Source: Verrucomicrobiia bacterium
GTDB taxonomy: Bacteria > Verrucomicrobiota > Verrucomicrobiia > Verrucomicrobiales > Akkermansiaceae
Direction of reading: 5' to 3'
DNA: 64,000 bases
NCBI GenBank assembly: GCA_030431475.1
Contig: JAUIJD010000001.1
Span: 62,001-126,000, forward strand
Within the stretch, counting starts at the first letter, position 1, and each line of letters begins with the position of its first letter. Positions 14,284 to 15,381 of this stretch are shown here, piece by piece. The notes beneath the pieces were generated by a model that saw nothing but the letters and a program-made list of their open reading frames with translations, made no database searches and was not told the origin of the DNA. A program made the position numbers and the translations under genes.

Positions 14284-15186
14284 TTACGCGCTCCGACGGC
14301 GCCGCACCAGGGGCGCCATTCCAAACACCACCAGCATGGCCAGCGCGGGTTCCGGGACCACGGAAAGCTCGGCACCCCACGGATTCAGCGAGATCACCGA
14401 TTGATTCTCGGAGAGGCCCTCGGGATCGAGCCAGAAGACGACATCATCCCCGGGGTCGTAGTCCTCGCCTCCCCAATCCGCGATCTCGGCTTCATTGAAC
14501 CACTGGCTCGTCAGGCTCACGACCTGCGTGGAGCGGCTGTTCAGGGTGCCGTTCGAAGTGTTGTCGCGGACGTAGTAGTTTCCATCCCCGGTGGCTACGC
14601 TCGCCACTTCATCGGTCAGCACCTCCCAGATCGCCGCCTGAAGGGCCGATGCTCCGAGGTCTCCGGACGCCCGCGAGGCCTCGTAGTAGTTCTGCACGAG
14701 GTAGGCAGCCCGTTTCAGACCACCAGCTCGATAGCCATCGACGCCCTCCGCCAGGTAGCGCGCTTCCGCCGCCCCGAGACTGTGGGCCGAGTACTCGACC
14801 ACGGTTCCCGAGCCGGCGCCGACAAAGCCGGTCTCGGAGTCGATGCAGAAGGCGTTGATCCCCAGCCGACCGTCGTAGGTATCTCCCGAGTCCCCCGTGA
14901 AGATCCCCGCACTCTGGGTGTCGATGGGAGGCAGGCTGCCGTCATCCACGAACATCAAACCCAGATCGCCGATGAAGCCCTGATAGTTGCTGGTCCCGTA
15001 GTGATCGGCCACGCTCCAGCCGTTAAGACTGCCGTTCACCGAGCCCACCTGGCCGGATACCGGCTCGACCTGATAGATCGCAGCCGAAAGGGGAGACGCC
15101 GCCATCGCCGCAAGGATGGGCAGTTTGGCGCGTTGGAGAGGAATCAGAGAGCGGGTTCGGGTGGGACCAAACGAGGGATTCTTCAT
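14284..15186 (-). CDS. PEP-CTERM surface protein with a possible Cys-Gln thioester domain
   Basis: A 300-residue exported protein. The N-terminal signal is unusually long and basic (cleavage near SAA, residue 35). The C terminus is a PEP-CTERM sorting tag: VPEP, a hydrophobic helix, and terminal RRRR. PEP-CTERM tags are processed by exosortase (not in this window) in Gram-negative biofilm formers. The body resembles thioester (TED/TQXA-like) adhesin domains: Cys114 in NAFCIDS and Gln183 in LQAAIWEVL occupy the positions of the two residues that form the internal thioester, with AYLVQNYY between them. Its own promoter lies just upstream. The thioester assignment is an inference from these two short motifs. 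Confidence 0.75.
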   Translation of the reverse strand: MKNPSFGPTRTRSLIPLQRAKLPILAAMAASPLSAAIYQVEPVSGQVGSVNGSLNGWSVADHYGTSNYQGFIGDLGLMFVDDGSLPPIDTQSAGIFTGDSGDTYDGRLGINAFCIDSETGFVGAGSGTVVEYSAHSLGAAEARYLAEGVDGYRAGGLKRAAYLVQNYYEASRASGDLGASALQAAIWEVLTDEVASVATGDGNYYVRDNTSNGTLNSRSTQVVSLTSQWFNEAEIADWGGEDYDPGDDVVFWLDPEGLSENQSVISLNPWGAELSVVPEPALAMLVVFGMAPLVRRRRSA

Positions 15187-15242
15187 CGTGTAAGGATGGG
15201 GTGCGGTGGCGAACTGCCCGGATTTCGCCGCGAGATCAACTA

Positions 15243-15273
15243 ATTATATAAGATTTCTTAATAGCACTGACAA
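15243..15273 (-). promoter_or_regulatory. Sigma70-like promoter of the PEP-CTERM gene
   Basis: On the minus strand a TTGTCA box (15268-15273) is followed by a 17-bp spacer and TATATA (15245-15250). A TATAAT (15243-15248) is an alternative -10 at 19-bp spacing. It lies in a conspicuously AT-rich 60-bp island in otherwise GC-rich DNA, about 55 bp upstream of the start codon. Confidence 0.65.
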
Positions 15274-15381
15274 GTTGATCAATTATTTTCAAAAAAGTGA
15301 GGGTTGCTGTTCGCGGCAGACCCTTCCTCCCCCCGTTGAAGCTCGCTTGTGTCCTCGCCCCAGCCGGTCAGAATCCTGCCG

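Follow-up and report, generated by a model that had tools for sequence, protein, structure and literature searches.

The window analysed here, a stretch of 64,000 nucleotides of DNA from a Verrucomicrobiia bacterium of the family Akkermansiaceae, contains a gene for a protein, P0002, that combines a signal-peptide-like start, a cysteine in a motif known from thioester domains and a PEP-CTERM-like tail. The locus raises the question of whether a Gram-negative bacterium could carry an internal thioester on an exosortase-sorted protein, and if so, which glutamine would close the bond and what the bond would be used for.

The P0002 gene and its surroundings

The open reading frame at 14284..15186, which the initial annotation had given with no strand, is real and lies on the minus strand, as do all features named below; it starts with ATG and translates into a thioester-domain protein of 300 aa. 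By eye, residues 1 to about 35 resemble a signal peptide (15082..15186). The thioester domain (TED) occupies about residues 36-270 (14377..15081), as judged from the VIA-align ranges and a Pfam TED match at residues 112-233. Cys114 (14845..14847), found as annotated within FCI (FCID), is the sole cysteine of the whole protein and the presumed thioester cysteine. Gln183, also confirmed, stands 69 residues away in QAAIW (LQAAIW) and opens the helix motif Q183-A-A-I-W187 (14626..14640), a motif that does not supply the thioester partner in solved TEDs. Gln262, the partner that we propose, lies in NQSVI (14401..14403). The sorting-signal-like tail begins with VPEP (14347..14358) and continues with a hydrophobic stretch and an RRRR cluster (14293..14346).

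The gene for release factor 3 (prfC) lies 65 bases downstream on the same strand, and a divergent gene for a glycosyl-hydrolase-core protein lies upstream. A conserved neighbourhood was not found when 15 proteins of the window were compared by tblastn with 11 homologue loci; the two that recurred were P0002 itself and prfC, the latter about 8 kb away in L085. Immediately upstream of the P0002 gene there is an AT-rich patch (15220-15310) amid GC-rich DNA, and a scan for sigma-70 promoters and terminators gave no match either for the gene or at this patch. An initial search of the genome contigs with P0002 confirmed nothing.

Assignment to the thioester domain family

P0002 carries a TED domain, an assignment of which profile, fold and motifs make us very confident and which bears out the class proposed in the initial annotation. 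The profile search that had been suggested there returned TED (PF08341) as the single Pfam family listed for P0002 at E <= 10, yet the hmmscan score of 19.3 bits (E 0.0015) falls below the cut-off of 22; the match runs from profile position 2 to 100 of 102. In a six-frame search of the own genome, the same domain scored 21.4 bits, or 22.1 bits with its neighbours. Among 26 assembled relatives, P0002 included, 17 hit TED at E <= 0.1 and 14 hit the PEP-CTERM model PF07589 at that threshold. This set was picked by hand after viewing the Cys and helix motifs, so that counts for those two columns are biased in it, and the strand Gln played no part in the picking. One relative, L018, clears both curated cut-offs (TED 31.3 bits, PF07589 34.6 bits), and the betaproteobacterial L050 (Extensimonas) clears that for TED with 25.2 bits. 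Searches of PDB sequences gave no TED among the matches. The three motifs of the family can be read in P0002: [YFL]C-Phi-zeta as FCID, the helix motif TQxxPhiW as LQAAIW, with a different residue at the Thr position, and the strand motif PhiQzetaPhiPhi as NQSVI, where the residue preceding Gln262 is Asn, not hydrophobic, and is often Tyr or Phe in homologues.

We obtained two AlphaFold2 models from an input of nine sequences, one of the full-length protein (model 1; mean pLDDT 51.2, low confidence) and one of residues 36-274 (model 2; mean pLDDT 64.8, pTM 0.74, moderate confidence), with the lowest confidence in the strand region ahead of Cys114. Foldseek placed the TED entry 5a0l at rank 9 for model 1 (E 1.7, not significant) and TEDs at ranks 1 and 2 for model 2 (E 0.044 and 0.28, probabilities 0.97 and 0.69), and no E-value in either model was below 0.044. 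VIA-align 2, which ranks the Foldseek candidates only, gave TED entries as the six best for model 1 (Z 6.8-8.7, 147-176 residues aligned, rmsd 3.5-6.5; next chain unrelated, Z 2.1) and as the ten best for model 2 (Z 9.0-11.0, 147-176 aligned, rmsd 3.0-4.3; next chain unrelated, Z 2.3). The fold of a beta-barrel with a helical bundle is thus recovered by VIA-align 2 on a model of mean pLDDT 64.8. In model 2, strands are followed by helices and these by two strands (214-218 and 229-232), an order that fits the account of TEDs given in excerpts of PMC4450167.

Conservation of the cysteine and of both glutamines

We replaced the Cys, helix-Gln and strand-Gln columns with X in 20 sequences and searched with the resulting masked profile at E <= 0.001. 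Of 195 genomes in the own family, 27 gave a match, as did 10 among 387 from the own phylum, 9 among 294 from the phylum of L048 (titled Phycisphaerales) and 38 among 299 from the family of L050 (Extensimonas, Burkholderiales). After sequences with identical last 100 aa had been reduced to one each and two fragments truncated at locus ends removed, these loci represented 104 distinct proteins, of which 41 belong to the own phylum (Verrucomicrobiota), 14 to that of L048 (Planctomycetota) and 49 to the L050 group (Burkholderiales). At this threshold the masked profile misses the TED-like proteins L081, L036, L043, L026 and L056/L027, all of which show the Cys, helix and strand motifs and stand outside the 104.

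The core of the 104 proteins has a median pairwise identity of 25%; conservation is highest in the columns of the P of PEP, Gln262, Glu188, Trp187, Gln183 and Cys114. At the strand position, 103 proteins have Gln and one has Gly; at the helix position, 103 have Gln and one has Tyr; and the Cys column holds Cys in 100 and Asp in two, with the N-terminus missing in the other two (100 of 102 scorable). Homologues that lack one or the other residue of the originally proposed Cys114-Gln183 pair therefore do exist, the Cys being absent in 2 of 102 scorable proteins and the helix Gln in 1 of 104. In the 84 proteins that took no part in building the profile, the strand Gln is present in all 84, the Cys in 81 of 82 scorable proteins and all three residues in 80. 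Of the 100 Cys-bearing proteins, 98 have no second Cys from 45 residues N-terminal of the conserved one as far as the strand motif, so that a disulphide is ruled out for those 98.

We compared these frequencies with 59 non-TED PEP-CTERM open reading frames from the same loci, among which [FYWLI]C.[DE] occurs in one and Q..[IVLA]W in two. Because the Cys and helix motifs are so rare there and belong to the most conserved positions at 25% identity, their occurrence exceeds chance. For the strand Gln, the motif Q[DNSR]-hydrophobic-hydrophobic within the 30 residues that precede PEP is found in 68 of 74 proteins of the TED set vs 3 of 59 other PEP-CTERM frames, a control in which five TED-like proteins that had escaped the masked profile were set apart. 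A looser expression for the strand Gln discriminated poorly (68 of 74 vs 25 of 64) and was dropped in favour of this stricter motif.

The predicted glutamine partner of Cys114

The initial annotation had joined Cys114 to Gln183 in a thioester, and in this it had the cysteine right and the glutamine wrong. In excerpts of PMC4450167 and PMC6194298, a C-terminal PhiQzetaPhiPhi motif, which PMC6194298 calls weak, supplies the Gln that is joined to the Cys of [YFL]C-Phi-zeta in the thioester of TEDs, as in the solved pairs Cys138-Gln267 of CpTIE, Cys109-Gln261 of SfbI and Cys94-Gln247 of PnTIE. According to the same excerpts, neither the Gln nor the Trp of TQxxPhiW, the helix motif, is essential to this bond, and the helix Gln of crystallised TEDs merely hydrogen-bonds the backbone of the Cys. 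Because crystallised TEDs use the strand Gln and not that of TQxxPhiW, Gln183 is not the expected partner; the Gln of the last strand is Gln262 here, 148 residues from Cys114. In the seven VIA-align alignments (from both models) for which the number of the thioester Gln is known from the literature, Gln262 coincides with it in four and lies at most two residues off in all seven, an overlay that assumes a gap-free last strand and is derived from the range ends rather than from printed residue pairs. We therefore predict, by analogy with the solved domains, that P0002 very probably contains a Cys114-Gln262 thioester.

Homologues in which residues have been lost bear on the same choice. The paralogue L030 has Asp for the Cys and Gly for the strand Gln and keeps the helix Gln, Trp and Glu; it shares a contig with L006, the sister of P0002, about 40 kb apart. 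In L112, the helix Gln and Trp are lost and the Cys and strand Gln are kept. These two cases point to the Cys and the strand Gln as the unit. The loss is not always paired, since the planctomycete L136 has Asp for the Cys and retains the strand Gln. The only loss of the strand Gln thus falls in one of the two proteins that lost the Cys, and with one Gln loss and two Cys losses the apparent pairing is suggestive and not significant. The contig with L030/L045 and L006/L044 thus carries one paralogue with a full Cys/Gln set and one with both thioester residues replaced, the latter a natural inactive control.

A bond between Cys114 and Gln183 would be in keeping with the near invariance of both residues and with the resemblance of QAAIW to TQxxPhiW. 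We nevertheless consider it very improbable and rejected it, because the helix Gln of crystallised TEDs is dispensable for a bond whose partner is the strand Gln, because L112 has Tyr at the helix-Gln position and still possesses the Cys and the strand Gln, and because both homologues without the Cys retain the helix Gln.

The tail and the absence of a stalk

The C-terminal tail of P0002 reads VPEPALAMLVVFGMAPLVRRRRSA, in which the annotated layout of VPEP, hydrophobic stretch and RRRR can be followed by eye; neither PF07589 nor TIGR02595 lists it at E <= 10, and among the NCBIfam models it gives a weak match to two PEP-CTERM families (14.8 and 14.4 bits). The sister L006 clears TIGR02595 with 17.9 bits against a cut-off of 16. 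The own genome encodes an exosortase (TIGR02602, 128.7 bits, cut-off 105.55), together with a weaker second match, and 35 PEP-CTERM tails at E <= 0.1, among which that of P0002 is not included. The earlier description of a Gram-negative secreted-type protein with a PEP-CTERM-type tail was sound. An excerpt of PMC1569441 proposes that exosortase cleaves such tails, with a link to exopolysaccharide.

Across the homologues, the strand Gln is followed by 26-159 residues to the C-terminus (median 36; more than 60 in 1 of 104), and in P0002 it stands 14 residues before VPEP. With so short a distance there is no stalk, and the architecture is that of a bare TED on a sorting signal; an isopeptide or ester stalk with an LPXTG anchor is not found in P0002. 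P0002 would work like a TED yet is not a TIE protein. The tails are mostly of the PEP type, with about 20 of 105 rows PLP/PTP-like and some PFE-CTERM (the table has 105 rows because P0002 is listed twice). L188 (G916) has a TED, then about 120 residues and, where PEP would be expected, a PSLNQW tail, and another sorting class may carry TEDs too.

Proposed function and alternatives

The best explanation of these data is that the exosortase system sorts P0002, a secreted thioester-domain protein with no stalk; we regard this as probable on a computed basis made up of the TED fold and motifs, the conservation of the Cys and strand Gln, the PEP-CTERM-like tail and the exosortase of the own genome. 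After export by Sec, the domain would fold, and, to judge from TED biochemistry, the thiol of Cys114 would attack the side-chain amide of Gln262, releasing ammonia and leaving a buried thioester, and the role of the central-helix residues Gln183 and Trp187 would be confined to bracing the backbone of the Cys. By the PEP-CTERM literature, exosortase would take off the C-terminal helix and possibly join the new C-terminus to a component of the envelope or exopolysaccharide. An amine of the matrix or of a neighbouring surface, from a protein Lys or an amino sugar, would then attack the thioester, leaving Gln262 in an isopeptide-type bond and Cys114 free, and the cross-link would be irreversible. 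P0002 would in this way tie envelope and matrix together covalently over a short distance, rather than reach far out as an adhesin. We propose this covalent linking of matrix or envelope as a function whose chances we hold to be about even.

The initial annotation had inferred an adhesin, and a genuine TED thioester could indeed be used in the classical manner, to attach to a host or particle surface. Excerpts of the literature are consistent with this, since the TED of SfbI binds a Lys of fibrinogen covalently (PMC4450167) and PEP-CTERM systems have been linked to surface-rich niches (PMC1569441). However, the Gram-positive TEDs are stalked, whereas these proteins have no stalk (median of 36 residues from strand Gln to C-terminus), and their members apparently come from environmental MAGs and an isolate, so that we consider the adhesin rather unlikely. 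A short-range cross-linker fits P0002 at least as well, and the lack of a stalk is what favours it over a long-reach adhesin.

If the Cys/Gln pair had a structural or vestigial role in a TED-fold protein and did not react with partners, the persistence of L030 without the Cys and strand Gln, and of L136 without the Cys, would be understandable, as the fold evidently tolerates the loss; it is exactly these residues, however, that are near-invariant at a median identity of 25%, and the excerpt of PMC6194298 assigns thioesters a negligible role in TED stability, which makes this reading improbable. That Cys114 is instead a free or redox-active thiol, engaged in metal, heme or peroxide chemistry in a protein that resembles TEDs in fold only, would suit a single unpaired Cys in an exported protein. 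It would leave unexplained the equal conservation of the strand Gln and the Cys and the loss of both in one paralogue, and no redox motif was seen; we give it hardly any credence.

Distribution and implications

Returning to the short covalent link, its extension to the whole group is more tentative: we think it possible, at somewhat less than even chances, that stalkless thioester proteins sorted by exosortase form a large class in Gram-negative bacteria and act as double-ended covalent staples. One end would be fixed by exosortase to the envelope or exopolysaccharide, and the Cys-Gln thioester would fix the other to amines of the matrix, of neighbour cells or of particles. If so, such proteins would provide an irreversible protein cross-link for flocs and biofilms.

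Several genomes carry more than one TED gene. Of the 9 matching planctomycete genomes, 5 have tandem pairs about 1 kb apart (L131/L139 in G716, L134/L140 in G639, L135/L142 in G578, L137/L141 in G546 and L138/L143 in G775), and there are three TED genes in a row in G1033 and two each in G1018 and G088. The members of a pair might have separate binding partners or bind one another. The genome of P0002 contains a second TED-like PEP-CTERM protein, L081 (G000:C100, about 1474-2358), with LCTQ, QLAAWE and EQDRMW. A Gram-positive-looking class II TED with repeats, L034 (G107:C55), is found in a bin of the own family, and reflects either contamination or gene transfer.

In an excerpt of PMC4450167, TED hits are reported as exclusively Gram-positive. 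We found no paper on thioester domains with PEP-CTERM in the literature searched, and for thioester domains together with exosortase, the latter term appears there solely in a reference. TEDs and PEP-CTERM proteins are each known, and it is their combination in Gram-negatives that was not met in the literature searched. Since some members clear the Pfam cut-off, databases probably already carry automatic TED labels on L018, L050 and similar members. An exosortase-sorted branch of TEDs would extend thioester chemistry to Gram-negative bacteria and dispense with the stalk, and covalent attachment would give a concrete job to one class within the PEP-CTERM proteins, most of which have no known function.

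Comparison with known systems

P0002 shares the layout of a Sec-type signal and a PEP-CTERM-like tail with PEP-CTERM/exosortase surface proteins such as the floc-forming PepA (NF033554), a type associated with exopolysaccharide and flocs. Unlike TEDs, the three above-cut-off PepA matches that we examined (L193-L195) lack a Q..PhiW motif; Cys is absent from two of them, and the single Cys of the third sits at the start of its open frame. With no TED motif at these three loci, PepA was rejected as a TED, and a link to it through L018 was also rejected, as the NF033554 score there comes from the last 83 residues, which consist largely of tail.

With Class II TEDs (BaTIE, SaTIE, EfmTIE86), the P0002 group has in common the upper-lobe fold and the Cys and strand Gln, but it has no space for their beta-sandwich insertion of roughly 75 residues, the helix Gln and strand Gln of homologues being 55-102 residues apart (median 67). 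With Class I TEDs (SfbI, Cpa, CpTIE, PnTIE; PF08341), the group shares the fold, the [YFL]C-Phi-zeta and QxxPhiW helix motifs, the C-terminal strand Gln and the short linker preceding the last two strands. In the excerpts of PMC4450167, Gram-positive TEDs are nearly always N-terminal, on stalk-repeat proteins with LPXTG. The P0002 group differs from Class I in that its sequences mostly score below the Pfam cut-off and its strand motif is mostly PhiQD-Phi-Phi, and in that its members belong to Gram-negative hosts and carry, without an isopeptide or ester stalk, a PEP-CTERM-type tail in place of LPXTG.
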